From Loxodes magnus (lineage: Eukaryota; Ciliophora; Karyorelictea; Loxodida; Loxodidae): DNA of 64,000 nucleotides. Where the stretch lies: positions 1-64,000 of the forward strand of contig CAMPDV010001734.1 of assembly GCA_946699065.1 (NCBI GenBank), written 5' to 3'. Shown here piece by piece: positions 1,841-33,389 of this stretch. The number at the start of each line of letters is the position of its first letter. Positions within the stretch are counted from its first letter, which is position 1. The position numbers were made by a program, and so were the translations under genes. Under the pieces are notes generated by a model. The model saw nothing but the letters and a program-made list of their open reading frames with translations, did no database searches and was not told the DNA's origin.

Positions 1841-1926
1841 AATTTTTTTATAATATATGTAGATGGTAAATAATCTAATTAAAGGAAGTACGTTACATTT
1901 TCTAAACTTTTATTTTTTTAAAATAG

Positions 1927-2382
1927 GTAAGTCATTTTAATATTCTTAACTTATAGTTGGTAAGTATTTTAATATTCTTAACTTATAGAAGGTAAGTATT
2001 TTAATATTCTTAACTTATAGATTGTAAGCATTTTAATATTCTTAATTTAGGTAAGCATTTTAATATTCTTAACTTAGGTAAGTTATTTTGATATTCTTAA
2101 CTTATAGCATGTAAGTATTTTAATATTCTAAACTTAGGTAAGCATTTTAATATTCTTAACTTAGGTAAGTTATTTTAATATTCTTAACTTAGGTAAGTCA
2201 TTTTAATATTCTTAACTTATAGAGAGTAAACATTTTAACATTCTTAACTTAGGTAAGTTATTTTAATATTATTAACTTAGGTAAGTTATTTTAATATTCT
2301 TAACTTAGGTAAGTTATTTTAATATTCTTAACTTAGGTAAGGCATTTTAATATTCTTAACTGTATAGAATGTAAGTATTTAC
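1927..2382 (+). repeat. Tandem array of intron-like units, copy A
   Basis: About 16 units of 27-32 bp. Each begins GTAAG, carries TTCTTAAC (branch-point-like) and ends TTAG or TTATAG. Units are either directly abutted (TAG|GTAAG) or separated by exactly three bases (TTG, AAG, ATT, CAT, AGA, AAT). No unit contains TGA. The array lies just after the ubiquitin-like segment and ends at a TGA at 2383. It could be a plain minisatellite or a string of micro-introns. Confidence 0.8.
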
Positions 2383-2389
2383 TGATTAG

Positions 2390-7065: not shown

Positions 7066-7209
7066 GCGTAAATATCTTAATTTTTAATTGGTTTAATATA
7101 ATCTAAAGCTTTTATACGTAATTAAATACATAGTATGCTTTACCTAATAGTAATAATAAAACTTCTTAAATTGTAAAATTAAAAGTCTTAATAGTTATTA
7201 CTTTCTCTC

Positions 7210-7925
7210 AACTTATTATTTTCCACTTTCTCACAGTATTATCATATCCTCCTGATACTATTTATTTCTTGTCCTTACCCAATGCTATAGAATTTAGATC
7301 ATTTTTTAGCCTTAAAGAGTTTATATACATTCACCTATATAAAAGTTCCATATCTACATGATCCAGAAATTGAAACACTTGAAGCATTACTAAATTGAAT
7401 ACTTGATACATTATTTGAATGACCTTGAAGAGTTCGAAGTAGCTGACTAATTGTGGACCCCCATATATTGATTATCTTAATCAATACTTCCTGATATGAT
7501 CAGTTCTGCTCACTTGAAATCGCTACAGAAAACGCAGAATCTGTATCTCCCCACAAAGAACCCTTTACATTAGCTAGTCCCATTTATTGATCGATTTATC
7601 ATAACTTACCAATAAAATTCAATTCCAATCACTTGATATCGCTAAAGAATTTACACCATTCGTGTGTTCTTACAAAGAACTTTTTAACTAACCAGTTGCT
7701 AAGTTCCATATCATTATCGTACCTTCAGAACTTCCCACTACGATTCCTTTTTGGTCTCTTGAAATCGCTACAGATAATAAAGGATTCGTATGTCCCTATA
7801 AAGTACTCTTATACTAGCCAGTTGTTAAGTCCCATATCTTTGTCGTACTATCTCTACTTCCTGATACGATTCAATTATAGTTACTAGATATCGATACAGA
7901 TAATGCAGGACCGTATGTTCTTGGA
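7210..7925 (-). pseudogene. WD40-repeat protein pseudogene
   Basis: Read on the minus strand from about 7925 to 7210 with TAA/TAG as Gln, this gives at least four WD repeats, for example SGSRDSTTKIWDLTTGQ, then QGHTNPLLSVAIS and GTIMIWNLATGQLKSS, with the usual GH...WD spacing. Such beta-propellers are protein-interaction scaffolds. Frameshifts occur in the fourth and fifth repeats, so the copy is broken and neither terminus is recognisable. In three repeats a TGA follows Asn at the same site before the IVSGS strand (near 7872, 7617 and 7500). This is either a Trp read from UGA or a nonsense change spread by repeat copying. Partner or pathway cannot be told. Confidence 0.75.
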
Positions 7926-8589
7926 ATATTTTATCTAAATATTAAAGACCTACCTTTAGTTTTATCGTGGTTGACTATATTTTCCATTTTTAAAAAACAA
8001 TATAGGTAGAATTTCATATTTAAGAAAAAAAGTAATTTTACCTAGAGAATAATTAGGTAATTTAAAATATTAGTTAAACAGATACTCTAAATAAATTATA
8101 TATTTTTATTTTGATTTATAATTTTATAACTTACTTTATAATAGTTTAATTATATTATCTGATATAAGGAAAATAATATCCTGACTTAGTTTAAATAGAA
8201 TTAAGTATAAAAGTATTAATTAATTAATTATACTTATAAGTATATTATTATTAAAACATATTTACATCCTTTTAAATCATTTAAATATAAGAAAAATATT
8301 TTATTTTCTTATATTTTTGCTATTATTTTCTATATAACTTAAATTAAATATAATGCTTATTCCTTTAGATTTTTATGCTATAAGCAAAACTGTTTTACCA
8401 TTTATTTAAAGAGATCAACGAACTATCCATTAGAAAAATATATTTAAGTTAAAATTAAATTAAAATAATTAAATATTATATACAATAATCAATTAAAATT
8501 TACTATTTACCTTATAAACTAAATTTATCATTCACTTTATTTTTATCCTTTCATTACCTACTATATAAAAAAACTAACATTTTACGCTA

Positions 8590-9020
8590 AAATCTCTTCT
8601 GAATAGGATCTATCCCAATCAAATACGAATAGCAAAATTTAATTTAAGAACTCAAATTATGTAATAGGAGAATTTTAAACCTTTAAGAAATGTATAAGAG
8701 CTTGAAGGGGAAAATCGCATATTAAAAAGACTTAAAATAAGTACTCAGCAAATATTAGAATCGAATGATTAGAAACAAAATTCAGCAACTTTGCAGTGCT
8801 AACCGAAAGCATATTCCTTTAAAATGAGTCAATGGATGTAGATCTAAAAGATCAACCAGAAAAAAATTTTAATTAAAGAAGTGAAAAAAGAAAACTGATC
8901 ATATTAAACATAAGCACTACGTTTCAAAGAATAGCTAAGAGGAGTGCAGTATACATTATATCCAAATAATCCTCTGTCAAAAACTTCTGAATCTGCTGTT
9001 TAAGTATTAAAGGTAAAAGA
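8590..9020 (+). pseudogene. Coiled-coil gene fragment (family with 37.6-38.2 kb)
   Basis: In the plus-strand frame, after IYPNQIRIAKF comes the heptad-like QELEGENRILKRLKIS. The nucleotide sequence is clearly related to the reverse complement of 37560-38170, including the AATAGGAGAATTTTAAAC block and a GAGTGCAGTATA block. The two copies have different frameshifts, and comparing them gives a coiled coil of the form QQENFKLQRNVQELEG. Function is not recognisable. It is preceded by about 600 bp of AT-rich DNA and followed by non-coding sequence. Confidence 0.5.
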
Positions 9021-12000
9021 AAAATAAATAATGAAAAGCTTAGGTAATTATAATATACCAAGAGCTATTAAGCTTTTTATAAAGTTTATACTTAGAAGAA
9101 TTTTGATTAAAAAAGCATTTCTTAATTGAGTAAGGAAGAGAGTTTTTGGTTATTATTGAGGTATTTGTCTTGATGCGAGTATATAATAACTAGAGCATAC
9201 AAAGAAGAATATAAGTTTAAGTTTTGGAAGTTTGAAAAATAAATCTATTGATTAATGAATTACTAAAGTAGTGATTTATTGTATCTGTGGTTATTAGTTT
9301 AGCAATGCACTCGCTTTTATATTTATTGAATAGATCTTACAGTTTTATAAAATGATTCTAGCTTTGATGTATTGTTTGTATTAATTTAGTGTATGATTTA
9401 GTTAATTAAAAATAAGAGGATGATAATTTGATAGGAGGGTTTATTAAAGATATACTAATTTGATGTTAAATCTGATATTGAAATTAAAGAGAAAATGTAT
9501 TAATATTGGGTCTATTAAGCTAAAATTGAATCTATAAACTTATATAGATCAAAATAAATAGCTAAAATAAACTGCAAATTGCTTATTTATCTTAATATTA
9601 TTTTGACAATGAAGTTCTATAAAATTACTTATAAATTAAATATTCTATTTAAAGCTATTCAGGAAGAATTTTCAATTATAAAATATGAAAATGTATTTAG
9701 TAGTAATTGAATACATTCAAATAACGATTTAAAGCTTATAATATAGAAATCAAATTTAATTAATTAATATTTTTAGTATCTGTCAGAAAACTCAAGCAAC
9801 TAATTAAAAAACTAAATCCTTATTTTATTTAAATAGCATAAGGACATAGATTTCTAGATGAGCTTCAAATATAGCTTAAATTTATTTATATAGACTTCTA
9901 TTTCACATAAATTGAAAAAAAGCTACATAAATCTTTATTATAACCATATAATGAAGTATTAAGCTTAAGAATAATAATGAAGGTTATTAATAATTTAGGA
10001 TTTATCTATATTAAATTTTTTCTTAAAAGATTGAAATATGAATAATGATTGCTCCTAGAAACAAAACTTTGAACAAAGAATATTAAAATACTTATAATTA
10101 TATATTAGTTGGAACCAAAAATATATGATTTTTAAATAAAAACTAATAAAAAATTATTAAGATTATATTTTATAAATATTAATCTCTAAAATAAATTTAG
10201 AGAAATGCTTTTTTTCTAAAGAAATGTTTATTCTTAACTATAAAGTTAAAGTCTAAATAATTTTAAGCTTAAATTAATTTGATAGAAAAATGTTAAATTT
10301 TTAGTTAAGTTTTATAATTTTTAAAACATTTTCTATTTAAAGGATTGTAAGTTTATTTAATTAATCTGATCTTCCTTTTTAATGAAAATAAATAGAAAAA
10401 ACCAGATAATTAAAGCTTTATTATATAATTCTTTAAGCTTATATTTATTTATTTAATTTTTTATATTAAAGGTTTGATTCATTTATCTTATTTATAAATT
10501 TAAACTTAAACAGTTCAACAAAAACTCAAAGTTTAATATATTCATTATAACTAATTAGCTTTCATGAACACTTCATAAAATCTTCTATTGCTTTTAAACA
10601 CTATTCTGTTCATCTGCTTTAGAACTGATTTATCAAAGCCAATTGAAAAGATTAAATTTTTAATTAATGGCATTTTATTACAATATTGGTTCTTATAAGT
10701 TCTAATCATTCCAAAAATTATTTTGTATGCACACTATTTTATATATTTCAACTTACTTTAATAATAATTTTTCAAATTAATTAACAGTTTTTAGTAGTTA
10801 TAAGTAAATACAGCTACTGTCATTTAACTAAATCAAAAAAAGCCTAAAAACTGAGAAATATTTGTCTCCTAATTTAATTAAATTAAATCTTTTAGTTGAC
10901 TGATAGAAATTTTAGGTTCATATATAACTAAGCCTTATACTGTGTAAAAAGGAATGGTCACATTTAATTAAGCAGTTAATTTTTTGGTTATAATTTTTAT
11001 AAATTTATTCTAAAATAATTTTTTTATAAATAAACTAGTAAAAATAAAATTTAAATTTTACATTTATTTTCTATTTTTTATCTTCATTAGTTTATCTACT
11101 TTTCTTTTTTTTCTCTTTTTTCTCAAATCAACTATTTTCCAGAATTAAAAAAAATTCCTTTTCAATTTCCTAAAAATGTATTTTTCTCATCTTAAGCGCG
11201 AACTTTAGTACAAAGATGTCTAAGTTAATTAATGATCCAAAATTTGATTTATTCACAGATGAGTAAAAACTTTTGAAAGCTTTAAAATGAATTCTAAAAT
11301 TAATCTTAATTTATTTCTTTAATTTATTTATTTCTATTTTATTTATAAAAAACTTTAGTTAAATCCACATTCTATTAGCATGCATTAAATAAACATTTTA
11401 GGTACAATAAAATAAACATTCAAGCACGTTAATTGTAGAGTTGCTAATAGATTGAAAATAAATGATTCGCTTAAGATATTATAATAGACTTTATGCTTAA
11501 TTTCCCTCTAATCCTCTAATAAATCAATATAATACTTAAATTATTTTAATTTATCAATCAACTTAAATACTTTATTCATATATACTCTGATCTGTTTAAA
11601 TTTATGAATCACTTCTTACTAAAATTAAATATTATAAATGATTTAAGTTTTATCAAATGATTAAGGCATTTATTGAAAAAAATAGATATAAGCACCTTAT
11701 GAAATATTTCTTAAATTAAAATTAATTTAACTTTTTAATTTAGTTTTTATCATTATTAATATCTTTTTTCGATTGCTAATAATTTAATCTTATCCATAAT
11801 TCTTCAATTTTATTTAACAACTAATAAAAGATCAAATATTATTATGTTTCCTTTTTTAAACCAAACTCATATACTTAATGTAAAGCAATAGTTCATTTAA
11901 TATATCAACTATTTATTCATTATAATCAAAATCTTTATTGCTATCTTTAGAGTCAACAACAACTTACTTAGATCACTATGTATCATATACAATAGATAAG

Positions 12001-12525
12001 TACAGTATAGTGCCTTTATCCTTATAACAAAACAAATCTAACACATACAAAATCAAATTCAAACTGTATACCATTCAAATTATTCTACACATCACCTTTA
12101 ATGTCTATTATACCTATAAACTAACCTAAATACAGTCACTACGCTATACAACAGACTAGTAATTCTATCAACAAAATCTATATTTAATTATGCCAACCTA
12201 TCAATAGGAACCACAACCGCTATAACTTTTATTAGACAAACTAAACTTTAAACAGCTTTCGTTAATATATCAATAAGAATAAACATTTTATAAACCTCTT
12301 GAGACTTTTGATACTAATCAAATAAACCTAACTACCACTGTTAATATTCCTCTACACTCTTATTATGGATTAAATTCAACTTAATGCTACAACTAATAAA
12401 TATAAAATACTACTCCATAATAAATCACTAAGATGCTAAGACTCTATGCTGCTCCTGTACTTTACTATAACCAGATATTTGTTGATAAGCTTTCGCTATG
12501 CTTTAAATTTACCTTTTATAAATTA
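9021..12525. other. AT-rich DNA without recognisable genes
   Basis: About 3.5 kb of AT-rich sequence with frequent homopolymers. No frame in either strand shows protein-like composition or motifs with TAA/TAG as Gln. No tRNA, tandem array or inverted repeat was seen. Confidence 0.6.
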
Positions 12526-12529
12526 CAGC

Positions 12530-14750
12530 TGATAAATACCTTTAGATATTAGGATTAGAATCTTCTTATTTGATTAATCCAGAAGTAACTTAATTAGTTT
12601 TAATCCAATACCTAAATTCATATCAATGTTCTAGACGACGGAGTTATTGGAATTTACTCCGAAAGGATTTATTCCGAAATCCTATTTCGAATTGACTGCA
12701 TACTATACGACACTTTCCTTAACTTTTGTTTCTTAAGAAAGCTACTTTACCAATAAGCAAATGCTCAAGCAACTCTTTAATCAAAATAATAAAATAAAAG
12801 CCTAGTTTTCTGTTTATAATAACTAGAAAGAATAGCTTGATGAAGTTTTTTCAAATATCTTAGGATTGGGTAATATAGAAGAATTCAGTGCTATATCCAG
12901 GACAAATTTACACTCCACCTGATAATTTTTTATATAGATTTTTCTTATTCGACTAACTCTAACGGATCATAAATGTCTTCAGCTTAATCGATTCTTTAAT
13001 TACCCTTTTATCACATTCCTTGTGTAGTTTCTTACATAAACACAGAAAAAAATAATACCAGAAAGATCTTTACTTAAAGAGAATCCACTGTCTATGGTTG
13101 GTTGTATTTCAACTTAAGCTTTACTTTATAAGTACTTGCAGATAATAAAGTGATATAGGAATTAGCCATTTAGCGTCTTTGATTATATCAAATTGAGGTC
13201 CAGTTTATTTTACTTTCTAATAACTTGGAATTAATATTCCTTATATTATTACAAGTAAAGAAGATCAACTTAACAACACCAATCTCTATAGTAATGTTCT
13301 AGATAACTACATTTCCTGAAATTTATTTGGTATAATGTACCTCAAATTAACTGAAAAAAATGAATTTAAATAAAGTTGGAATTGTTTTCGAAGATTTCGA
13401 GCCTTCAAATAGATAAATTTGAAATTTTAGCATATAAAATCTTTAAGAAACTTATAGAAACTGTAATGAACTCTTATGATACTACTTTCATAAAAGGAGA
13501 TAATGTATGAAATCTTCAAGTATATGAACAACTTGCAAATCAAATCATGCAAAGGGAAATCAAAATTATCTTTTCCTCACCTGCTGCTAATTTTATTTTG
13601 GTTTTCAGTTGATAAACTAATGGAACTAGGATGATAAGAGGGAGATACTAATTTTGTGCTTTTTATATAATGCTTATAATTACGAAGCTTAAAATTTAGC
13701 CTGAAGTACTCAAAGCTGTAAGAAGACTTTTAAATGGTTTAATGACCATAACTCCAATTGAGTATGTAGAAGAAGAAGGCTAAAATTTACTAGAAGTACA
13801 AGAGTAATGCAATAGCTCTATTCATTTCACTTCTTGCTACTACTTAAAAATAGCCAATAATATTAGCATATGGTCTTTAGCAATGCATAGAAGAAGGCTT
13901 AGACTACTACATTCCTGCTAATCTGATTTAAAAAATGAGAAATGAGAAATTTTTAGGATGTAATGAAAGCATAAAATTTGAGAAAAATAGCATCTTTAGA
14001 GATAATCAGAACTTCTTCTTTATGAATAATTACTATGATTCTAACTGAAATCTACATCTTGTGCCTTATCTTGAGTACTTTAAACTTGTGCTATCGTTTG
14101 AACTAAACATAATGAACCTATTTGAAATGATAATACAACTAACATTCCTAAAGATTCATTTGAACTATATAGTGATAACTGTGATTTTACAGTACGGAGA
14201 GTTAAAAAATATGAGAGAGGATGCAACGCAATAATAATATAATAAGTAGTACTATTTAGTATAGCTTTGTTAACTTCACTTTTTGGATTTAAAATATGAA
14301 AATCTAGAAAATAGGAAATTTTGAGCAAAGAAGTATGAATGACAAGTGAAGATTAATTCTTTTCATAGATACTTTTTATTTAATTTGCCTAATACATTTT
14401 ATTAGGACCTGATTTAAGGCCACTTCTATACTAAATAAGTTCCGTTTAGTCTATTTCGTTTAGTTATTTGACAACGAGAGTAACAGATTTAGCGTTCTGA
14501 GGTATAATAAAGCTATGAAGTGGTTTTGGTTTCTTAACAGTATTACTGGCAATAGCTTTTCTATTATAATTTGAAGTTACTTAGAAATAAAGGAAAACTA
14601 ACTTATAAATGCTCTCCAGCTTTGATAGAAATAACTTTGATAGGAGTAATTTTCTTACTAGCTTAAATAATGAGATGTAGTTATGGAAGGGATAGTAATC
14701 TAAACTTTGAAATAGAAGTTTGAGAATCCTTTTTAGACTTAGATTGTTCC
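12530..14750 (+). CDS. Putative multi-pass membrane protein with GPS-like region (partial)
   Basis: One plus-strand frame (codons starting at positions equal to 2 modulo 3) reads protein-like from about 12530 to at least 14700 without a frameshift, with TAA/TAG as Gln and TGA as Trp (for example 12920, 13151, 13352, 13361, 13508, 13610, 13943). It gives soluble segments such as ELLEFTPKGFIPKSYFELTA and KFEILAYKIFKKLIETVM, then a Cys/Trp-rich stretch (TCAIVWTKHNEPIW ... SDNCDFTV) reminiscent of the GPS autoproteolysis motif. It is followed directly by a hydrophobic span (VVLFSIALLTSLFGF), and later FGFLTVLLAIAFLL. This is the order seen in polycystin/adhesion-type proteins and resembles the gene at 50.1-52.6 kb. 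If TGA is only a stop, this is a pseudogene. Neither end is certain; no ATG was assigned. Confidence 0.45.
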
Positions 14751-14899
14751 AAGTAGTGTCTTTCTTAACCTCATATAATAACTATAATATTTAGTAATTT
14801 AGCTTTATTTTTCTATGTTCCACTAGTTATATTGATTCGTCCACATTGATAGGAAGTTCAGAAAGACACCATTAATATAAAGTAGAAGACATGATTCAT

Positions 14900-15650
14900 A
14901 ATTCTAAAGACTTTGATTTGCTAATTTCTAGTACTTATTAACTAGATACTTAATTGTATCCTATTAGTCATGCTATCATATACTCTATTACCTTCTTTAC
15001 TTTTGCTTAGTTTTAATAAAAAAGGTAATTACTTACTAGAAAGTTAACTGACTATAGTTTATTCTTCTTTTACTAGTAGCATTAGTAGGTCTTAACACCA
15101 ATTTACCTTCACACAGATTTAGGAGATCATGTACCTTTGACTTTGTCACTCGAGGTATTTTCGGATCACTCTTCCAAAGATGGAATTACATCAAGTTCTC
15201 TATATACGGTCAGCTGCTCTGACATATATAGTCTGAATCCTCATCTTTCTTTTGGTTTACGCGTTCGTCTTCTTCGAACCTTCTCTCTTTCTCATCTTCT
15301 TCAATTCTGCTTAGTTTCACATCTTTTTAAAGTAATCTAACTTTCTTATTTTTTTGGAATTCTTTCTCGGATAAAATATCAAGAGGGTAACAACAGGCTC
15401 TTTTTTAACAATCAGCTTAATATTAAACTTTTTTTATCTTCTTCATCAAATTCTACTAAATCTATAAATTTATAATGAGCCTTACTCAGAAATTGATTTA
15501 TGTAATTAGGAATTATACATTTGCTCTAACAAGATTTAATTAGATTTTTATATCAATAGAAATGTTTCAAACAATGCAGCAAAGCCTGTTATAAGCCTGC
15601 TAAGCTTGCAAATGGACCTATGATGTTATTCGGTCCATGTTTTTTTTCTG
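14900..15650 (-). pseudogene. Unrecognised charged protein, decayed
   Basis: Minus-strand frames give strongly charged, protein-like sequence: FIDLVEFDEEDKK near 15440, then, after one frameshift, KDVKLSRIEEDEKERRFEED near 15300, and further on LWKSDPKIPRVTKSKVHD and LLNLCEGKLVLRPTNATSKR near 15100. An upstream stretch near 15570 has Cys/His residues (LHCLKHFY, SCQSKC) that could bind a metal. It lies on the same strand, just downstream of the helicase-like pseudogene, and may belong to the same prokaryote-derived block or be a ciliate gene next to it. No family recognised. Confidence 0.4.
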
Positions 15651-16630
15651 AAAAAGATAGAACTCTACAAAAAGGGTTAGATGAATCTCAATTTTTTGTA
15701 ATTATCCCTGTATTTAAAGGAATTATATTATTTTAGGAAAAATTTGAGTAAAACCAAAGATTATACATGATTTTAATTATACCTGGTACAGATGAGATAT
15801 AGACATCTAATGCAAAGAAAGCTGATAAATTCTCTCTTTTTATATTTGAGGACATTTGGTTAGGCTAATTTATCCAAAATGCAAGCCTCAGCTAAGCTGT
15901 GCTGCAAGTATTTCGCTAATATTTCCCCTCATTTAAAGAAAGCCAGTGAAAAGAATACACATGCCAGAATACATAGAATATTATGAGTGTAAGCAGCCAG
16001 AGACGAGCTTGGAAGATAATATTTCTCTTTAGTCCTTTTCAAAAGATGATATAAAACGTTTTTGACATCTGCAAATTATAACTTTTCTAAAAGTAGCATA
16101 TTTAGTAGGAAAAACCTATTCATCAACTCAATTCCCGGATTTTTGAGAAGATGGATTTCATCAATGAATATTACTTAAATGTTTAGAATCCAGGGTGCAT
16201 GATGCCTAAGCAATGAGTCTAGCTTTTCGCTTGTGGTTATGATCAAGTTATATTTTGCAAGATAGGGCTCAGATATCTCAATGCAACCAATAAAAAGAGC
16301 AAATTTGGCAAAAATATTCAAATTTTATCTTAAATTCCTTGTATTTTTTAGATGCAAATGCCTCTAATGGGACAATACAAAGCTTCTTTCCTTTTCCTTA
16401 AATCAGAGATGTAAGTAATTTAATTCTGTGGTCAGTTTTTTTTTAGATGCAGTTGGCGTTTACACAAGGATATGCTTTTTTTTCGATAATTCTGCTTTTA
16501 TTACCTCCATTTGTGTTGGCCTTAGCTTCTGAATCTTTTCTTTTTCATGTACTTCATTAAGTTTTTTTGGAATCATTTTCTTAATCTATTCATGCTTCAT
16601 AAGCAGAAAGATATATTTGATATTATAAAC
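15650..16630 (-). pseudogene. Hel308-type (Ski2-like) DNA helicase, decayed
   Basis: Minus-strand motifs in order match superfamily 2 Hel308 helicases, which unwind DNA at stalled forks in archaea (HELQ in animals): Q-like KIQKLRPTQMEVI near 16530; Walker A HILVQTPTAS followed by KKK instead of GKT; motif Ia in another frame (CIVPLEAFASKKYKEFK); LIITTSEKLDSLLRHHAPW; and the DEIH box in VIFIDEIHLLKN near 16140. Downstream, SSSLAA resembles the motif V region, but motifs III-IV are missing or scrambled. The wording TTSEKLDSLLRH and DEIHLL is typical of archaeal Hel308. Frameshifts and the lost GKT lysine/threonine context show it is dead. It lies about 40 bp after the exonuclease-like gene on the same strand, as in a prokaryotic operon. 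Confidence 0.8.
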
Positions 16631-16636
16631 TAATTT

Positions 16637-17250
16637 TTAGGGATGATTCACTGTTTCTTGTAGCCTATCTATTGTAAAGTCAGCAATTATCTTGAGATTA
16701 GCAACATCTTCTTCATTGTATTTAAAGAGAAGCTTTAAATAATACTCATCTGCCTGTTGCCTGATACATCCTCTATAAGCACACAGGATCACCGCCATAA
16801 AAATTTTATTATCTTTTTTCATTGTATACCTAGTTACTTTCAATCACTTTAAGGCCGCCTAATTACCCTACTCTCCTATTTGTTGCCTTTACAACAAAGA
16901 GTGGGATTTAGGCAGTATGTCAGGATCTTTCTTTTTTAGGAAAGGTATTCCAATAGATTCTCCATTAAAGGTAATAATAAGGCTATATTTGCTCAATTCC
17001 TGATTTAATGCAAAAAGATTGAGATTAATGCCTTTAACATTGTTTTTGTATCAATCCCATCAAGCAAACCAATGTCAGTAAGCTCATCATACTTAAGAAC
17101 GTCTGTTGCTTCTATGCCAAGGAAATCAACCCTATTCCTATAGAATTCATTCAATCTCCATGTTTTAATCCATATGAAGCTTGTCAGCAAGTTAGTCTGA
17201 GTTTAGAATATTAAGATTTTTTTTGCTTCCAAAAACTTTCTGTCAAATTA
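16637..17250 (-). pseudogene. YprB-like RNase H-fold 3'-5' exonuclease, decayed
   Basis: The minus strand shows the landmarks of the YprB/RNase H-like predicted exonuclease family (COG3359 type): RVDFLGIEATDVLKYDEL (about 17130), then after a frameshift LSKYSLIITFNGESIGIPF near 16960, a H-x-L stretch (PKSHSLL), and the conserved LFKYNEEDVANLK near 16690 followed by a terminal helix. In the family the acidic residues coordinate metals. The FNGxxFDxPF motif has an intact FNG, but the Asp is replaced (GESIGIPF). The frame runs past NHP into TAA at 16637-16639. In a standard-code donor this TAA would be the natural stop, with the helicase ATG about 50 bp on. Several frameshifts make it a pseudogene. 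Confidence 0.75.
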
Positions 17251-17269
17251 ACTTTTACGGGTATTTGAC

Positions 17270-18200
17270 AATCCCTTTACCTTGTCTCTTGCAATAAAAT
17301 CATCTCAGTTTGATATGCGGACACAGTATTTATCCATTTCTAGAAAAAATAACTGTTTATTATTATGGTAAACTGTCTAAGTGACAATGAACAGATCATT
17401 TTGGGCGAAGCCTTAGTACATCGAGGTTGTCTGGATACTAGAATATCCTAGTAAGAATTAAGTTGAGCTAACATCATAGCCATTCTTAGTAAGATAAGCT
17501 GCAAAGGTATGCTTTAAGGTATGAGGATGTACATACTTTTCAATAACAGCACTTAAGACAGCTGCTCGATAAATTTGCTGCACATTCCGAACATAGGATG
17601 CCCATTTCTTCTCGAGAAAAGCAATGAGCTATTATTATTCCTCTTATACTCCTTTATTTTATCCTCAAGGCTGTCTGCAATGGCAAACAATATATCCTTG
17701 CTATATTTGCCTTTACATTCTCATCTAAATCCTTTCTTGAGGTCAAGATTAACCATTTTTAACTAGATAATCTTATTTACTTTAAATCCTGCTGAATAGA
17801 TAAGTTTCACAATAAGTTTGTGCTTTGGATTATCAATAGTATTAAGCAAGGCCTTTATTAAAAAATTAGGTAGCATTTTTGGTATTTCTAATAGCATATC
17901 CTGAGCAAGAGACTTTTATGCAATTTCTTGATATTGAAAATTTAAGGCTGCTCATATGCACATTTAATGTATTTCCCGGGAAATTTCTGCCAACTAATCT
18001 ATCAAGAAAATCCTTTATAGCTATCATATAAATTTCAATAGGATCCTTTGGATATTGTATAAATAACCTTTGTATACAATTAAGATAGGTTGTGATTGCT
18101 CGGATATTTAATCCTCCTCTGAGCGTCTACTTTCATATTAATTTAAAAATATCCATTTTACTGTTATCCAAACAAAACTAGTTTAAGTATCTCACGTATT
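17270..18200 (-). pseudogene. XerA/XerD-like tyrosine recombinase, decayed
   Basis: The minus strand encodes a site-specific tyrosine recombinase (strand cutting and rejoining). The N-terminal SAM-like domain includes AITTYLNCIQRLFIQYPKD and NTLNVHMSSLKFS (about 18080-17960). After a frameshift comes the catalytic domain: NTIDNPKHKLIVKLIYSAGF (about 17830), NLDLKKGFR, GKYSKDILFAIADSLEDKI, then HPHTLKHTFAAYLTKNGYDV (about 17510) and LLGYSSIQTTSMY, with the nucleophile Tyr near 17417. The catalytic Arg of the GLR motif is Lys, HxxR is HTLK, and the second His (GHSS) is Tyr, so the active site is lost. Wording is closest to archaeal/bacterial Xer proteins rather than eukaryotic Cryptons. Upstream 18216-18437 may hold a small helix-rich ORF. 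Confidence 0.85.
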
Positions 18201-19760
18201 CATCTATTATAGTTACTAGGAATAGAAAACTTTTAGTTTAATCGGATTCATAAGCGAAATTATATTTTGTTCAAGTAGCGCAATTTTAATATTCTTAGGA
18301 AATGAAGATATCTCTGTACCTGTTGAAATTAGCTTATTAATTGTGAGAATGGTACTGATGGAAACATCAAAACTTAGATTGCTTGAATAAAAGGTCTCCT
18401 GCGTTATTACTTTCTCAGGAAGCTTCGTTTTCTTCAAATATTTCCCTTTTTGTTAGTTCCAGCACTCAAAAACTATCGCTTTTGGTGCGAATTCGCGAGG
18501 GAGAGGGGCATAACATCGTTATATTCAATATTACTCTGAATTTTTCTCTATTGCGTGCTATAATAATAGAAAATTTCTCGATAACTGGCATCTGACTGAT
18601 TTTCGAGGGAAAATACCAAAAATCCCATTCCACTTAACACAATCCTCTATTTCGTAGGGGCATCTAGCGAATAACCAAATGAAAACTCAAAATTTAAACC
18701 AGGGGAATATCAGCCTGGCTGCATTTTATACAAAGGGTTAGGAACTTTGTATTGGCCTTATCTTTCATTAGCTGAAGATTTGGCAGAAGGAGTTTAGAAG
18801 AGATATATTAAGGTTCTTTTGACAAATAGAACTCATTTTTTTGACGATCTATAGTAGGAATTAAGTTCAATGGCTCTTGACAGTTTTACTAACTACTTTT
18901 TACTCCTAAAGTAAACTAACTACTGAAAAAGCTTATACAAGTAATTTAAGCAATTAACTATTTAAAACCTTTATTACTTTCAGTATCCAAAAGACTAAGT
19001 TTAAGACTTACTTAAATGTACTTCCGATTCTAAGGAAAGAGCTAAAATTCTTTTCATGCGAACAGATATTCAATTTTTTTTTTAAAGCCACTTCAAATTT
19101 TAGAACGTAATATTAGAAATTCACACATTTGTATTAAATATGAATCTTCCAAATGTATATTGCTATAAAAATGATAAGTGATCCTGTAATATATGTGAAG
19201 AAGCTTTCTTTTCGAGAGATGATTCTTTTTCTTTACTTGATGAATATTGTTATTCATGAAGCTTAGCAAGGGATATTTCGGAAGAGCCTTATTTTTTTGG
19301 AACTGAAAATCTAAAAATACATAATCTCTGATAAAGATCATTCAAGAAAAACTGATTTTAAATAACGTTTAGTTTCATTAGTTTTCTAAGCATCATCGTA
19401 ATTAGATTGAATGCTAATCTTGTAATTTAGAATTCAATGACAGACTTTTAGTTTCTTGATTCATAAAAGTATTTAGTTAGTATGTATTGAGTATTAGAGC
19501 ACGAAGAATTTGATTGTGGAAGTCTCAAATTTAATAGAGGGAGTGAAATAAATTATTTCCATAATTTAGATTAAAAAAGTGGAGATTAAAACTATGCAGG
19601 AATTGCGTTTCATGGACTTTAAAATCAAACCAGACTCAACTAATCTAAACAAACGAAGTTACCTTCACTAAAAGCTTAATTTGATCATATTTATACTATT
19701 TATACAATGAAATTGAAGCTCTCTTTTTGATTCAGAACTGTAAGTTATTTAGCAGGAGAT
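18201..19760. other. Mostly non-coding; possible short remnants
   Basis: A minus-strand 73-codon frame at 18216-18437 (KNIKIALLEQNI) could be a leftover of a small regulator upstream of the recombinase, but no motif identifies it. Around 18470-18520 the base composition is locally GC-richer (GCGAATTCGCGAGGGAGAGG), unlike the surroundings, perhaps still foreign DNA. From 18640 to 19760 I see short, unconvincing frames only. Confidence 0.4.
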
Positions 19761-19764
19761 TTAA

Positions 19765-20440
19765 ATGACTGTTATTAAGATATTTAAAACTAAGATACTT
19801 GGTATGAGAGCGATTTTAATGGCACCTAATAAAGAGCAGCAAGAGAAGGCTAAAATGGTAAATAAAATGGTTAGTTTAGCTATAACTTAGTTACATCAAT
19901 AATTTGAGTAGTTAAATATAAGTGATACTGAGCAGCAATATATTGAGCCATAATTAGAGGTATTCAGAAGAAAGGTTCCGAAAATATTGTCCCATAAGCA
20001 AAGTAATGTTAAACTACACATAATTGGTTTTTTAAAGTCTTAAGGGTTTTAACTTTAGATGCTTAATAAGAAATGATATAGAAGTTAAGAGGTAAAAAAG
20101 CAGATTTTTCTGTGGCTTGTGTCTATAAGATGACAATTTTGGAATAGTTGAAGATATAATATTTGAGTAAATAAGAATGGTAGAAGATATTAAGATGACT
20201 AATTGTAGCTTTTGCTATAACTAAATCTGAATGAATAACTGATTGACTCAAAATTGAGTTGAAACAGATTTTGGCTATATTAGTTGTTGAATTATAGTTA
20301 ACTCTGCATATCCATTTTAATATATTTTCTGATAACTATAATGAAAGAGGTGGAGGAATGATAGTAAACTGAGTATAGGACTGCATAAGGAATGATAAGG
20401 CGCAAGAATTGTAATTTATAGCCTTGAATGGAAATTAAGT
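19765..20440 (+). pseudogene. Hypothetical protein, one frameshift
   Basis: From ATG 19765 with TAA/TAG as Gln the frame gives a hydrophilic, helical sequence (APNKEQQEKAKMVNKMV, VFRRKVPKILSHKQSNVKL) to about 20075. It then shifts and continues with LRGKKADFSVACVYKMT, QEWQKILR and WLIVAFAITKSEW, the last two needing TGA as Trp. The hydrophobic segment near 20270 (ILAILVVELQLTLHIHF) may be membrane-bound or core. No family recognised. It could be the 5' part of the large membrane protein gene that follows, but no continuous frame joins them. Confidence 0.4.
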
Positions 20441-20449
20441 TCTGGTAAT

Positions 20450-23400
20450 AAGTGCTGATAACTAATTGCACATTTTCCTAAACTAGCAGTTTAAATAATA
20501 AAGACTAGCTATCTAATAATTAGATAAACTAGAATGCTTAATGTAAATGGAAAAACTTAAACTGCCTCCTTTAAAATTTAGAACACTTTTTTAATGGAAA
20601 ATATAGGTTGAATGGCAGCTGCAGATTTGAAACTAGCCAGGATGCATAATATAGTAAATTTGTAAATAATAAACAGTAAATTTTAGGGAAGCAGCGGAAA
20701 ATAAATTTGTAGTTTCTAAATTTTGGATAGAATGTTATTAAGGATTGATAGCAAAATTAGAAATTCTGAATTTTCTAACTAAACCTCTACAAAATATTTG
20801 ATTGCTTTGTAAAATTGGAATTATTTATAGTTCATATTAGTAAAGTTTAAGTACAATACTCTAATAAACCAAAATTCCAGCTTTATTAATGGGATAAAAC
20901 TCTCTGAATTAAGTTTGAGAAATATACTTAAAGTAGTGTGAATTCAGCTATAACATAGATACAGGCAATCAATTTAATTTTGCATACTTAATCTAGACAA
21001 AGTGGGATGCAGGATATACAATAATAATAAGAACGGAAAACTGTACTTTCTTTAAGAATATTGGTTTGATTTTTGGTTTCCAAGATGTGAATTATGATGA
21101 TAGAGACTGAATCTTTGAGCAAAACTATTACTATTAGACTTGTTTGGGATATTTTAGAAGCTTTGGATTTCTTAATTTGATATCTTTTGAAAGAACTAAA
21201 ATGATAGAAAATACATCACAAGATGTTTTACTTTGCTTTGAAGACGTAGAAGCTTAATTTATAAATGTAAGATTAGTTGGGAACACTGCCTATAAAAAAG
21301 GATAAATTTAGCTAGTTAATGTTAGAATGAATATATAAAACTCATCTTTTACTAGTAACTATGCTTATCAATATGCTGCTCTATATCATTCATTCTCCTC
21401 TATTCTAAGTAAAAAATTCCCTTTTTAATAAAAACCAACCATATTTATATGCAGACTCTTAGTAAGCGCAAAAGTCACTTAGCCAAATTTTGAGAATGTT
21501 TCTTGCAAATAATGTTTCTTTAGGATGCGCTATTTACTTAACTTCAAACGCCTAGCTAATTTTATCTATGTGCACGGCGTTTAATAACTCAGCTGATAAG
21601 CAAGGAGGCTTCGTATATGCTGAGTCAGAATCATAGATATAGATTAAAGATTCGAATATATCTTGAAACTCCTGCAAAAGCCAAGGATCAGCTATATCTA
21701 TAATATCTTCCCTTTCAAGCAATAAGATCTAAAATTCAGTTCTTACTAGTAATATAGCAAGCCTAGCTACTATTTATATGCTCAAATCCAAATTTATAAT
21801 CAACATCTCAAAATAAAGCAAGTAACTGTTTTGCACCAGTACTACCTATCATTTCAGTAAACCTTTTATAATTAAATACCAAACTAGCTATCCTTTATTA
21901 CTAACTGATACCTAACTATTTCCAATTCTTTACTTCTTTAACCATATTCTTATCAAGGAGGCGCTGTCTATTCTTTCAAAGGCCAAGTCTAAATATTCAA
22001 TACCCATTTCAGCACAGAGGGAAATAAGAAGGAGCCATTTTTGGAAATTATATCAATTTAAGTTTCTGGGGAAATAAGTAAGAGAGCAATGATACTTATG
22101 GAAGTATTTAATGTAATAACTCTAAGTTACATTGGACTAAGATTTCTTCGTAAACTTTAGCTTAAGATATGTTTATTTAATTTCTCCAGCACTGTCACTT
22201 ATAGTAAAAACTATATTTAGAGATGGAAGAGGATAAAAAGAAGGAGGAGCTATTTATCTAGAAGAAAGTAAGGACATTACAATTTAAGATTCTATATTCT
22301 ACAATATTACAGAAGCTTCTGGTGGATGCTTATCAATTATTAACGCTAATAATGAAAAACTTTAACTTCATAAAAATCTTTAACTCTAACTTTAGTTATT
22401 GAAGTGCTTATCAAGACGGAGGTGCTATTTTAGTGCTACAGGCGAATGTAAGTATACCTAGCAATACTTTTTATTAAAACTCAGTTGGAAAAAATGATCA
22501 AGCTGATAAGCCCAAGGGAGGAGCTATCCGATTAGTGTGTTTTGACTATCTTTGGTAATTTAATTTATCTTATAACACTTTTTAGAATAATTAAGCCCTA
22601 TAGGATGAAGGTGGTGCTATCAGTTGGGCAAATAAAATTCCATATTTATATCCAGAAGATACAGAATAAGAACTATTCTGCTAATATTATTTGAGCAATT
22701 AAGCAAAATATGGAAATTAAATAACCTCTTAAGCTAATTTTTTGGATATGTTATTATCTAATTAGAAAATATTTACAATATGATTCCTAAGTGTTCTAAT
22801 GATAGATTGCTTAAAAAGCAAATAAAATGCTTAAAAAATTATGTAGAAGTTTACGCTCCTGTACAGGCAAAAAGGAAGCCTACCATTTTATATTAATAGA
22901 TTCATTTGGACAGCAAGTTATACATCTCAACATACTGAACTTTTATTCTAAATTTAAGAAAGATTTAAAGACTAAGCTACTTTTTCTGGGCAAGTCTAAT
23001 TTTACTCTGACTAAGGATTATTTAATGTAAGTGGTCAGATAATGCAAGGAGCTTAAAGCTCTTATATTGGTATAAAAGCAGTTGTTAGAGAAATTAATGA
23101 AGAGTTTGGCTAGTAAAATGATCTATTTTCATTCAAGGGTTGAACTTCTCAAGTATTTACCATAAATTTAAGATATTGTATAGAAGGTGAAATTTATCAG
23201 TCTGCTGGAATCTGTTACGTTTGCGATTAAACAAAATACTCTTTAAAGCTAAATGCCATTGGTTGCGAATCGTGTCCAGACGAGTTGAATGCCCAGAAGG
23301 AACTGATATTTTTCCATAATCAGGATACTGAAGTAATAATGTTATAAAATATCCTGGAGTTAGCAGTTGTCTTGGAACTGACGTTCCTAATTCTGATTTA

Positions 23401-25890
23401 TTAGCAGATAAAAACTATCGAAGTGCCATTAACTGAAAAGAAGAATGTGCTGCAGGTTATACAAGTAATTTATGCGACTCTTACCTATTAAACTACGAAA
23501 GAGTAGAAGAAAATAAATGTGGACCTTGTCCTGACTCTTAAGTTAATATTATAAGAATATTAATGATTATAGTAATCATTATTATAACTCTTGTTGTCAT
23601 AATAAAAAGCATAATAAGTACTGCTAAGAGAGCTGAATAATTGCATCAGTATATTTCAAAATTTTAATGAATTATTTGTAGTTATCAGTGTTAACAGCTT
23701 CGTTTAAGTTTAATTGGCCTGACTCAGTTATATCGCTATTCAGTATAAAGAAACAAACAGGAAATGCGAGTTCATCACTTTTCAGTTTTGGTTGCTTTAT
23801 GTAGTCTAAATCTTAGGAGCAAGCTTAGCAAGCGTTTTATAGAAAATTAATCCTAATGGCGCTTTTACCCATTTTTATCTTCGTAATTTCTACTATTTTT
23901 AGTTGCATTAAAAGTTTACTCTTTACTTGAAAAATGAATACATAACTACCGTTGTAATTGCAGTTTTTTCATTTCATCCAAATATCGGGCATAGTATGCA
24001 GTCAGTATTTTCCTTTATGAGTATCAATGGCAAGATATTCAGTAATTATGATACTGAAATTGAATGTTGAACTTTAGAGCATAAAACGTATGCCATTACA
24101 GTTGGACTACCTGGTATGATAATTTGGGGAATAGGAATTCCAGCTCTATTCTTTTAATTATAAGAAGAAATGAAGATGCCTTTAGTCTTATAAAGGTAAA
24201 ACCAAAGTATGGATTCCTTTATGTTGGATAAAAAAATAATTTTTTGTACTGGGAATTTATAATTTTATATAAAAAAATATTAATCTCCACGATATCTGCT
24301 TTATTCCAGTCCTTCGATGTTCAAATTCAAGCTCTGAGTATACTGCTAGTCTTGGCCTTAGCTTTTTATTATTAGCACTTGTTATAACCTTTCTAAGCAA
24401 CTTCTCTAAACAAATGTGAGCAGTATAGCATACTAGTAAGTGGAGTTGCTGTCTACTGTGGTTTATTTTTCCTTTCTGGAGCTCTAACAATTTAGCAGGT
24501 TTGGTTCTGTTCTTTATAATAATAGTGGCAAATGTAATATTTTTATAATTCTAAGCTAGACAAATGATGTCAAGCATAATGCAAGTAATAATGTTCAAGT
24601 CTCATAAATTCTTTAATACTTTTTGTTCATGATTCTATGTGTCCAATGGCAGACTCCTAAATATGATTGGAGAAATGGACCTAGAAAACTTCAAGCATCG
24701 TAAAAGGTACATCAAAAAATTCATCAATAAGAACTTAGATTTTGAAAGACACCAAGAATAATTATTCAGCGATCTAATGAAAGTCAAGCTTTTGACTAAA
24801 ATTGGAACTTTGAAAAGAAAATAAATGATTTGGTATGTCGATCTGTTCAGACAAGGAAAAGAAAACTTGGACAAGCTAATATAAGTTAATCTAAATGTTT
24901 GGAATGCCAGCGAGTAAATTTTTGAGGACTCTTTAGTAGATTAAAAGTAATAGAAGCAAGACACAAGTTAAAGCCTAAAGAATTTTTAGAATTCTATAGA
25001 GTTTAATAAATCATTTAGAAAAAAGACTGCTTGAGGTAAAACTCATGATGTAAGTGAGGAGTTTAGTGGCTTGAAAGCTGATTTGACTTAATACTTTACA
25101 GATCGAATAAATAACCCTTTAAAAATACAAAGCTAAGGAGTTTATATTCAAAAACTTATTGAAGGTTCTTTTGAATAAAAATCAGAATCAGTAGAGTAAA
25201 ACCAATCTTAGTAATAGTTTAAAACTATTTAAAGCGATTAAAGCTCTTTACTAGAAAGAAAGAATCTAGTTTTAAATTGAATTGAAAACAATTAATCTGA
25301 TGAATCTTAAGATTAAAATTAAGAAAGAGATAGAAAAAAATCTATTTCGAGCATTAGAAAATTGAATCCTATAATAGAAAACTAGAGAAAATTAAACTTA
25401 CCTGAAGATTTATTAAAACAATAAGATACTAAAATGTAGCATCTTTATCTTTGATATCTGATAATATAAATTAAACAAATACTAGCAAAGATAGCAAAAT
25501 TAAAAATTAAGAACTTCCAGAAATAAAAAGAAGAAATAGTTAAAAGATATCTGAAAGATAAAGATATAGAAGAAGCAAGAGAAACAGAAAAACACTCAAA
25601 ATAAGGAAATCTATCTCACTAAGTCTCTAAAAGATTAAATATTTGCTATTCTAAGTGTAAAATAATTAATATAATGAGTTAGGCTAAGAAAATCAATTCT
25701 TCAATTATAACTCTTAGCTTGAGTTAAACTCCCTTAGTTCTGAGGATGTCTAAGTAACTTAATAAATAATATAGGACTTATAAGAAACTTAAAAAGAAGA
25801 GAAAATTGACTTTAACTTAAAAAAGAATTAAAAAAGCTTCAAATAAGAAATTGAAGTTTATGATTTCATCCATTTAAATTGAAAGGAATA
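20450..25890 (+). pseudogene. Beta-helix, cysteine-rich multi-pass ciliate membrane protein, decayed
   Basis: The middle part (about 22240-22720) has Pmp-like beta-helix repeats with GGAI and N-S/F-xxN motifs (KGGAIRLVCFDYL, DEGGAISW). Around 23200-23530 comes a Cys-rich region (CESCPDEL, EECAAGYTSNLCDSY, KCGPCPDS), then transmembrane spans (RILMIIVIIIITLVVII near 23570) and the ciliate-typical block LMNYLQLSVLTASFKFNWPD (about 23680). YDTEIEC-TGA-TLEHK and LPGMIIWGIGIPALFF follow near 24050-24150. The tail to 25.88 kb is Gln/Lys/Ser-rich and cytoplasmic-looking. This order is common in large ciliate surface or secretory membrane proteins of unknown role. At least three frameshifts are visible, so it is a pseudogene. 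TGA sits where relatives have Trp (GYW, CW). Confidence 0.65.
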
Positions 25891-26234
25891 TAAAAAGCAA
25901 GTTTTTAATCAAAGGATGCTTTTAGTAAAGTAAAAATATTTTTTATTTTTATGATTTAACAAGTAAAGAAAGTAAAGAAGTTCAATAAAATAATTAAGGA
26001 ATGCTAAGGGAATTTGATTTAAAATGAAAATATATAATCTAGTATCTCTTATTCTTTTTTGTAAGTAAACATTTATTTATTTTTAATAAATTATGCAAAG
26101 GATTAAAATTTAAATACTTCTAGTATTTTCAACTTAAAATGTTCACTTTCATCTTCTTTCTTACTTTTATTAAATGCTAATAAAAAGAATTTTTTCAAAT
26201 TTCCTTTTTCTCTTTTTTTATTTTTTTGAATAAA

Positions 26235-26307
26235 AACTCAACGTGGGGCTCGAACCCACGAACACCAGATTAAGAGTCTGACACTCTACCGACTGAGCTA
26301 GCCAGGC
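26235..26307 (-). tRNA. tRNA-Lys (anticodon CTT)
   Basis: The reverse complement folds as a 73-nt cloverleaf without intron: D stem GCTC/GAGT, anticodon arm TCAGA-CTCTTAA-TCTGG giving anticodon CTT, and T arm GTGGG-TTCGAGC-CCCAC. D, anticodon and T arms are canonical. The acceptor stem (GCCTGGC against GTTGAGT) is poor, with one C-A mismatch and several G-U pairs, so it may be drifting toward a pseudogene. No CCA is encoded, as expected in eukaryotes. A T run follows at the 3' side (26221-26227 in plus coordinates), a plausible Pol III terminator. Confidence 0.85.
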
Positions 26308-26309
26308 TT

Positions 26310-28525
26310 ATATTTTATTAAATAAAGATACTATAAGTATAAAATTTAGTGATCTCCTTTTTTAATAAAAATCAGTTAATTTATTCAGGAAATTCTTAAT
26401 TCTTTTTAAGTTTAAAATTTTATTTTTGCCTTTTAATTATTTTATCTCATTACTAAAAGTTAAGCATTGTAGAATATTCTCGAGACATGTTTTAATAATT
26501 TTTTATTTAGAGCATAATTATTGATTTATCTCTTATTATTTATAGTAAGGTATATTTGCTTTTATTTAACAAAATTAAATCCAATGGCAATATAATTTTT
26601 TTTGGAAATAACCACAAAAAAGATTCCAATTTGTCTAGGTAATTAATGATATAAGCGTAAAATAATAAAAATATTGATATCAAAACCCTTAAAATAATGC
26701 TTCATTCTCACTTGTTTTTTTCATATTTTTTCCATTAAATTTTTAAGATTTGTACCTTACAACTATCACAAAACTATAATTTCCACTCTTAAATAACCTG
26801 CAAAATTTAGTTTACTCTTTAAAAATTCAGATTTTGGAAATTATTTAATTTACTTCATAAGTTTAATCATTATATAGTTTTCACTTTATTCTATGCAATA
26901 AATAGAAAAATAAGGATATTAAAAGGAAAGTTAGTTCTATTTAAGTTTATAAGGCAATAGCTATTAAAATGTATCTACTCAACAGAAAAAATAGATGAAG
27001 CTTGTATGCTTCTATACTTTATATTGAGATTAAATCTAAACTTAATAAATTAAGTTTCATATCGAATTTTTTAATCCAGTAAAGGTTTTTAATACAATCA
27101 ATCATTTATATAATATCTTTTTAGTTTAATTTAATCTTTATAATGTCATTATTCTTTTTACTCCCATTAATTATCTTTTTAGCTTTTATATACTCCAGTT
27201 TTATTAAATACCTTAAAAAATTTCCATTAAGAATGTTCATTCATTTCACAAAAAAAAACTTTCTTTAAGTTTAAACAAACTAGAAAATAAAGAAAAGATA
27301 GCCAAACCTTTTATCTTTATCAATTTATTTAGCATCACTTTAACTTTTTTCACTTAATATAGCTTTGCTATCCTTTAATGAATAACTAGTGTAATATTAA
27401 AGAAACTTTTAAAAAGAATTAAGAACTGTATAAAAGTAAATACCTTTGTAAAATGCTTAATTTATATAGATCAGATATATTCAGGTTCAATTAATTTGGC
27501 CTACATTTAAATGGAGTTGTTAATTTTATATATTACTTGCATAGAGAAAAAACGAGAAGAATCAAAAATAAAAATAAGCTAATAACGAAAAAATTTTTTA
27601 CTAAGCAATACATAAGAATTCGTTAACAGGAAAATGAAATATTAGAATTCATAAAAGTACTATAAATGAATGTTGTTGTAAAAGGATTAAAGTTAATTAA
27701 TTTTATTCAAATGGTAATAATTACATAGATCTAAAGTAGAACAAGCAATAACTTAAGGAGAAGAAAATAAAAATCAAAAAAAGTATCTTAACTAGAAGTA
27801 AATTTTTAAATTAACTAAGTGTTTTAATAGTCAATTTAATATAGATTGCATCACTAGAGGAATTATTTCTAAATCTATTTTAAAATACCGATAAAGCGTG
27901 AATAATAGATGAAAATCATTAATACATGTATAAGAAAAATGAATGGTACTAATGTGAAGTAAGAGTTATTAAAAAGGCATAACTTCAAATTTTAATTATA
28001 TATTAAATTTTTATTCTTGTATATGCAAATAAAGTATAATAATAGATTAAAATATTTGAAACTAAAATATATAAAAAGAAGAGTATATTTGAGCGCTTCT
28101 AATATATTTAATCATTTTTCTTAAGGTATTCTGTTTTTTAATACAATGAAAAATTATTTTCTGTGGATAAAGCTAAAGTAATAAAAGCTAGAGTTAGATA
28201 ATTTGATTTGATAATTATATAAAATAAAAAGTTCTTTTGTAATTAAGTATTCTAATCTTAACTTTGAGTACTTTGGATTGACTGATATATATAATTTAAC
28301 AAAAAAATATTAAATAAAACTAAAATCAAGGAAAAAAGCACATTAAATAGGGAAAAGTTAAGATTAACCTTTAAGCTAAAAAAGAATAAAAAAATTATAA
28401 AAATATCTTAAAAAAAGTTTATAAACAAATGGAATAAATAATAACAAAAAATTTTTAAGTAAAATATTCTCAAATTATTATAATTTAATTAGTTTTAAAA
28501 AGGCTAATCTTAATTTTTAATTTTA
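26310..28525. other. AT-rich DNA without recognisable genes
   Basis: About 2.2 kb, AT-rich, with no coherent frame, RNA gene or repeat recognised. Confidence 0.6.
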
Positions 28526-30675: not shown

Positions 30676-30928
30676 TGGAAAAAGGTCACGAATAAAGAAA
30701 TCTAAATATCGATAGTATCTCCGAATAATAAATCTGTGAAGCTTATGGTTAAGCAAGGCACTATTATCTAATAGCTATATGAAATTATATAAAAATAAAC
30801 AAATTTATACTGATGGTCATTGGCTATCTATAAGAATGGCAATGAGTTAGAGAAAAAATAGACAATGCAATCTTATAATATAATGGATGGGGAATAGTTA
30901 TAAATGAGATGGAGTTAATTTTTTATAA
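30676..30928 (+). other. Ubiquitin-like segment in frame after the RING gene
   Basis: Continues the frame of the RING gene: ISIVSPNNKSVKLMVKQG, a central helix IIQQLYEIIQKQ, then LAIYKNGNELEKKQTM, SYNIMDGEQLQMRW. The strand-helix-strand order and the YNGxxL...DGxxL pattern are those of ubiquitin folds. There is no C-terminal Gly-Gly. One in-frame TGA (30811, LY-TGA-WSL) stands where copy A has GAA. With UGA as sense the ancestral protein would be RING-coiled coil-Ubl. The region after 30928 (Phe/Ile/Gln-rich) does not look coding. Confidence 0.6.
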
Positions 30929-30998
30929 TATATGTAGATGGTAAATAATCTAATTAAAGGAGGTACGTCACATTTCTAAGTTTTTATTTTTAAAATAG

Positions 30999-33387: not shown

Positions 33388-33389
33388 AT

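Follow-up and report, generated by a model that had tools for sequence, protein, structure and literature searches.

How could a run of prokaryotic genes come to lie in the nuclear DNA of a ciliate, and what has become of it there? The question is raised by a 64,000-nucleotide stretch of the Loxodes magnus genome (C1734:1-64000; hereafter the window, meaning the whole stretch), whose minus strand carries, in this order, the remains of a XerA tyrosine recombinase, an RNase_H_2 exonuclease and a Hel308-like helicase, the first two split over frames. We put at roughly 90% the probability that this block is Woesearchaeota-type DNA which was accidentally taken into an ancestor of the ciliate, decayed, and was amplified as an inert passenger of host repeats.

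The macronuclear (MAC) assembly of L. magnus is reported to comprise 706 Mbp, built from PacBio circular consensus sequence (CCS) reads, with NCBI genetic code 27, in which the sole stop UGA is ambiguous (PMC11441545). TAA and TAG being sense codons in the ciliate code, long open frames mean little; the window holds 121 of at least 200 residues under that code and, under the bacterial code, one open reading frame (ORF) of at least 100 residues, which lies over a 9-base tandem array. Hence a gene is called broken here on account of frame changes, gaps and TGA codons relative to the archaeal proteins.

Archaeal relatives of the three genes

When the window was compared with ORFs of Woesearchaeota, the best E-values were 2.5e-39 for XerA (L149), 2.6e-34 for the exonuclease (L047) and 1.1e-36 for the helicase (L126), and the three minus-strand pseudogenes of the initial annotation are present in the order that it gave. 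The span that it proposed was 15650..18200; the extent is widened to 15540-18660 by homology to seven divergent copies elsewhere in the genome. Exonuclease loci supplied 2,832 ORFs with 176 window matches at E<=1e-3, of which 175 fall inside 15540-18660; helicase and XerA loci supplied 1,077, and all 94 of their window matches fall there too. Reversed ORFs gave no match in the window (2 and 1 weak matches in other targets). The ORFs came from loci picked for these genes, so the test of chance covers these genes and not archaeal genes generally. Six-frame Pfam scans of window positions 7001-15602 and 18601-27002 returned WD40-type matches only. In the trees and the codon test the ciliate is represented by a single copy, C10, which is less decayed than that of the window.

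The RNase_H_2 model (PF13482) recognizes the exonuclease of the window (5.5e-05; 23.6 bits, above the gathering score of 22), and in one frame of C10 it reaches 14.8 bits only. A database search gave 14 matches, all of them PF13482 proteins with a best identity of 54%, and both that carry an organism name are from Woesearchaeota. Scanning genome contigs yielded 122 relatives, from which 80 loci were kept; by their titles 72 are Woesearchaeota or Nanoarchaeota/Nanoarchaeia, 6 are labelled only "archaeon" and 2 are other archaea. All but one of these 80, a locus without an ORF spanning the match, were used. The resulting tree places the ciliate in a clade of 18 rows (99/97) whose named members are Woesearchaeota, next to P0121 (97/46).

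The Pfam Phage_integrase model finds XerA both in the window (8.6e-11, above the curated cut-off) and in the XerA frame of C10 (1.6e-22). The top NCBIfam model for C10 is XerA_Arch (NF040815; 1.6e-29), whose cut-off of 220 bits is missed at 103.3 bits; the gene in C10 is a remnant, not a working XerA_Arch member. Database searching gave 684 matches with a best identity of 41%, and a tree built from 44 of 120 listed matches together with 27 sequences from loci puts the ciliate row, on a branch of 1.44, within an archaeal XerA clade of 30 rows (100/99). This clade holds five Woesearchaeota genomes and two rows that carry an archaeon's name; the rows with bacterial names lie outside it, and three genomes (G003, G011 and G039) have one XerA inside it and another elsewhere in the tree. 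Judged by this position, the ciliate gene is a member of an accessory archaeal XerA clade. Its first arginine column (R in 32/32) reads TGA in C10 and K in the window, where the HxxR motif has, by eye, become HTLK; the two arginine positions replaced by lysine in the window are presumably catalytic. Archaeal-type XerA chains head the PDB matches, among them 4a8e, which we take to be an archaeal chain, and for the helicase archaeal-type Hel308 chains do so.

The helicase of the window lies in a single frame, 43% identical to its best match over 161 residues. No DEAD match (Pfam) was obtained in this copy; C10 gives DEAD at 1.4e-06 and, among NCBIfam models, PRK00254 at 1.4e-25 and Hel308 at 2.5e-23. 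The Hel308 match of C10 covers positions 20-207 of 704, so that the ciliate helicase lacks the full architecture of two RecA domains and later domains (~700 residues). A relative is carried by 34 of the 41 Woesearchaeota-type genomes searched, and in all 30 Woesearchaeota loci that were fetched (L117-L146) the closest relatives are ORFs of 211-261 residues comprising the first part of Hel308 only. The ciliate piece hel_c matches the final residues ahead of the archaeal stop, as in this short form, and the tree groups the ciliate with the short Woesearchaeota helicases (31 rows) against two full-length ones (100/100), its exact place being unsure because of a very long branch. This short, single-domain protein is a lineage-specific half helicase of Woesearchaeota that deserves a separate study.

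The initial annotation had read the wording of these genes as archaeal rather than as that of eukaryotic Cryptons or HELQ, and had called for protein searches and trees of all three. These bear it out, and they sharpen the relatives: on sequence comparison, the three genes belong with Woesearchaeota and other DPANN archaea, the closest families being archaeal XerA (NF040815), RNase_H_2 (PF13482) and Hel308, from which the Loxodes genes differ in being broken and, for the helicase, in being of the short form. The block could instead have come from a eukaryotic transposon with a Crypton-type tyrosine recombinase and a HELQ-like helicase, or from an old ciliate gene family; both tyrosine recombinases and Ski2-type helicases are, we take it, known in eukaryotes, and eukaryotic Ski2-like chains occur among the PDB matches. 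However, the best models and the trees are archaeal (though the trees contain no Crypton or HELQ rows), the best eukaryotic chain among the 17 PDB matches of the helicase, ASCC3, reaches 4.1e-09 against 6.2e-13 for a Hel308-type chain, none of the 17 is named HELQ, and three of the four conserved glutamine columns in C10 are still CAA/CAG. We consider a eukaryotic origin very improbable.

Copies, decay and carrier repeats

Searched as DNA against the whole genome (705,730,643 bases in 7,843 contigs), the block was found at 38 places at least, 31 of them window-like (94-100% identity) and 7 older (73-88%). With 40 of 46 candidates scored these counts are lower bounds, and two partial copies (C846:47265 and C902:123150) lie outside the 38. 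All 79 exonuclease matches in the genome fall inside the 38 copies, and none of the 79 is a full-length exonuclease in one TGA-free frame.

Homology between the window and the seven divergent copies stops at 15540 and at 18659-18660, and the flanks of those copies, as far as shown, keep resembling each other (C10 and C108a are 89.9% identical over 13,050 columns). With flanks of their own that are alike and a likeness to the window confined to the block, it follows that two large repeat families share the block. The carrier repeat of the window family is about 20 kb long or more: with small gaps it matches C655 over 8568-28276, C1285 over 8175-28128 and C2188 over 8015-28031, and a probe from the flank at 24-26 kb has 16 full-length copies (94-100%), 6 two-thirds copies (96-97%) and weaker ones besides. 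In a tree of ten copies the window type nests with C343 (98.7/99); it descends from the older type and spread inside the host repeat, the block having passed from one repeat family into the other.

The damage is shared in the same manner. A gap of 11 nt in XerA is common to 9 of the 10 aligned copies, the bases being kept by C108b alone, which suggests a loss rather than a gain. The 183-nt gap in the helicase occurs in the three aligned copies of the window type (window, C116 and C715) and in none of the seven divergent copies, one of which, C383, has a different helicase gap of 70 nt. Decay has followed the tree of copies inside the host, which argues against both sequencing error and separate imports. 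Over three stretches, compared in the 21 pairs that the seven older copies form, the ratio of nonsynonymous to synonymous differences (pN/pS) is 0.75 in frame and 0.68 and 0.61 in out-of-frame controls; being no lower in frame, it gives no sign of selection on the protein. Frameshifts, stops, shared gaps and the want of frame-specific constraint in the copies agree with the decay in a host nucleus that had been supposed at the outset, and the block most likely does nothing as protein today, as far as its sequence tells. Of twelve in-frame TAA/TAG codons in C10, one stands at a glutamine column and eleven at non-glutamine positions; together with the glutamine columns mentioned above, this suggests an archaeal text in the standard code that was seemingly not rewritten for the ciliate code.

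The copies also bear on whether the locus could be an artefact, through contamination from archaea or symbionts or through chimeric assembly. The assembly is repeat-rich, and the block stands at equal coordinates in C2484 and C1051 and again in C1090 and C846; these contigs are perhaps redundant. Nonetheless, 38 copies of graded identity with nested common gaps, some of them in very long contigs (up to 1.78 Mb), and an assembly reported to derive from accurate CCS reads by way of Falcon and Racon (PMC11441545), leave such an artefact with almost no likelihood. Many copies of the block lie inside host contigs, and neither the exonuclease, searched as protein, nor the block, searched as DNA, turned up anywhere in the genome on a free prokaryotic contig. 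With an archaeal 16S probe, the 5 candidates scored of 1,041 were genes of ~1,670 nt, probably host 18S, a result that leaves room for an archaeal 16S gene.

Table 1. Features of the archaeal block and its carrier in the window
Feature	Position	Strand	Basis or remark
Woesearchaeota-related block common to 38 copies	15540..18660	-	Bounded by the loss of homology to seven divergent copies
Pseudogene of archaeal XerA tyrosine recombinase (accessory archaeal clade), three pieces	17389..18189	-	ORF match, Pfam, tree
Pseudogene of RNase_H_2 (PF13482) exonuclease, two pieces	16655..17340	-	ORF match, Pfam, tree
Pseudogene of short Hel308-like helicase of Woesearchaeota	16133..16615	-	Walker A region degraded (by eye)
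Junction of 183-nt helicase deletion	16132..16133	-	Copy alignment
Rest of block, from helicase to MgtE remnant (the latter in divergent copies only)	15540..16131	-	No gene identified
Host repeat carrying the block	8015..28276	.	Lower bound; copies C655, C1285, C2188

Several other features were seen in the window. Within the carrier repeat lies a tRNA-Lys(CTT) (26234-26308, minus strand; Rfam 51 bits), and a fragment of a WD40 repeat gene, presumably of the host, is found at 7571-7903 (minus strand; Pfam WD40 5.3e-19). Direct repeats, with pieces 81-99% alike, stand at 1614-6981 and 30690-36714, ~29-30 kb from each other and each close to a tandem array of 28-32 bp; they are perhaps long terminal repeats in direct orientation, or else a tandem unit around the archaeal block. 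Inverted arms of ~1.6 kb (53169-54831 and 60847-62449; pieces 77-95% complementary) flank a 6-kb centre, like a large inverted-repeat element. At 32564-33387 there are ~92 near-perfect copies of the 9-mer AGAGTGATA, and the strands are strongly skewed there (GC skew 0.84 at 32-34 kb).

Extent of the fragment and its source

The older copies hold further prokaryotic pieces. In C10 the helicase is followed by an MgtE transporter domain (Pfam 1.4e-06, above the cut-off), whose single database relative at E<=0.001, P0135, matches all seven older copies with a best E of 9.4e-34, the longest segments being 39-57% identical. The 20 MgtE matches in the genome fall in these seven copies and in three other places, and in none of the 31 window-type places. 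The three other places (C2281:67117, C567:116591 and C237:331274), where the block was not found, are perhaps further pieces of the same fragment; one MgtE remnant of C237 has a single frame that runs the length of the protein, with one TGA under the ciliate code, but its middle reads out of frame. An archaeal origin of the MgtE remnant may be supposed.

About 2 kb upstream of the block, in all three copies read there (C10, C108a and C237), lies a piece that we take to be RelE-like, a kind often mobile, with a best E of 8.7e-14. Its relatives are at L061 and at the Woesearchaeota locus L148, where the gene stands ~390 bases from a XerA of the same clade as the ciliate one. From this piece to the helicase is ~5 kb (7.2-12.2 kb of C10), or ~6 kb with MgtE, which suggests that the archaeal fragment that entered measured about 5-6 kb or more; the figure is not put at a minimum of 6 kb, P0135 being without an organism name. 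Between the RelE-like piece and XerA, C10 also shows a Glyoxalase-family match (L023 ~8594-8767, minus strand; 6.9e-05, above the cut-off), which may be one more archaeal gene. A leucine-rich repeat (LRR) match near C10 is below the cut-off, and Pfam scans of the wider C10 flanks (L023:3301-6602 and L024:6601-9900) gave no matches.

The gene order is another matter. The initial annotation had called it operon-like and suggested looking for it in archaeal genomes. XerA, exonuclease and helicase occur together in 0/80 exonuclease, 0/30 helicase and 0/30 XerA loci of archaea, the 60 helicase and XerA loci having only ~1.5 kb of flank each, and in this sample of 140 loci the order is no archaeal norm. 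A tyrosine recombinase ~3 kb from the exonuclease in L072 does not count as synteny, being a different gene (29% identical), and neither do the helicases ~8-9 kb from the exonuclease in L052 and L067, which are different, full-length genes. Two explanations offer themselves: a donor lineage outside the sample whose genes are rearranged, or a rearrangement of the fragment at its entry or later. This absence weighs against a simple Woesearchaeota fragment, and so do the long branches of the ciliate rows (1.25, 1.44 and 2.49, the place of the last being unsure), the weak sister pairings (97/46; 80/73), the small codon counts, and the MgtE relative P0135, which comes without an organism name and found no match among the archaeal loci examined.

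Could the fragment have brought itself in? The initial annotation had thought of a piece of an archaeal genome, plasmid or virus, perhaps carried by an integrating element with its own recombinase. A mobile Woesearchaeote element of this kind (integrative element, plasmid or virus), integrated by its own XerA and accompanied by the RelE-like gene, would fit the accessory clade of the ciliate XerA, a second XerA being present elsewhere in the tree for G003, G011 and G039, and the proximity of the RelE-like gene to a XerA of that clade in L148. But a pattern scan of IMG/VR found no exonuclease relative, none of 80 viral XerA loci (80 kept of 199) has the exonuclease or the helicase, and to the ciliate piece the best viral XerA reaches 78 bits, where Woesearchaeota L147 reaches 127. 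In all five Woesearchaeota loci read, moreover, the short helicase is near a gene that we take to be the signal recognition particle (SRP) receptor FtsY; therefore the helicase is probably chromosomal. To the eye, the 40-60 bases displayed at the ends of the block contain no terminal repeats, and this, with the loss in the window and C10 of XerA residues that are presumably catalytic, leaves self-mobilization in the ciliate unsupported. Nor did the block ends, the IMG/VR scan and the viral XerA loci reveal attachment sites or companion genes of viral or plasmid type. The archaeal DNA of the first proposal stands, and for an integrating element, plasmid or virus as its carrier no positive proof was obtained; the accessory XerA and its RelE-like neighbour leave some room for such a source, which we hold to be unlikely.

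We favour instead an accidental entry of archaeal DNA. Some 5-6 kb (or more) of Woesearchaeota-type (DPANN) DNA would have entered the nuclear DNA of an ancestor of L. magnus, most simply once, from an archaeon that was eaten or resident, by accidental uptake and repair-type joining, and would have reached the germline. Its genes, unadapted to the ciliate code, would have been broken by frameshifts, stops and deletions; no selection was detectable among the copies compared. Duplication together with the surrounding DNA would have produced the older family, with seven copies of the series XerA-exonuclease-helicase-MgtE and three more loci with MgtE remnants. From an older copy a part of 3.1 kb would then have passed into the other host repeat, ~20 kb or more in length, and by the copying of that repeat the block would have spread as a passenger to 31 places, the window among them. 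A more far-reaching version, in which the ancestor of Loxodes had lasting intracellular Woesearchaeota symbionts and the fragment is a fossil of organelle-like leakage of DNA to the germline, appears doubtful; if it were true, more pieces of the same archaeon would be expected elsewhere in the genome.

A probable archaeal fossil and the biology of Loxodes

Nuclear inserts of organelle DNA (numts and nupts) or of bacterial symbiont DNA (Wolbachia-type) are known. Like them, the Loxodes block is a dead multi-gene prokaryotic fragment in the nucleus, decaying neutrally and carried by host duplication; unlike them, it has a DPANN archaeal donor, a ciliate host with its own code, and about forty copies. 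The same species is reported to have a Rickettsia-derived gene cluster, likewise prokaryotic DNA, which differs in being bacterial and in being called recent; the main text of that paper has no word starting with "archaea" (PMC11441545). Among the matches listed in our literature search (titles and abstract openings, with most subscription papers and bioRxiv preprints outside its range) none described DPANN DNA in the genome of a ciliate. Inserts from prokaryote to nucleus are already known, and within the range of that search it is the DPANN donor in a ciliate that appears to be new.

Woesearchaeota have not been brought into culture; the prediction is that most are symbionts, which would live on other prokaryotes, a view that is disputed, and some may be host-independent (PMC8421398). 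A multi-gene Woesearchaeote fossil in a ciliate would mean that DPANN DNA has reached a eukaryotic nucleus, and would constitute a physical record of contact between the two. L. magnus is reported to be without extensive DNA elimination (PMC11441545), and the block would be an example of how DNA of foreign origin survives and gains copies in such a ciliate.

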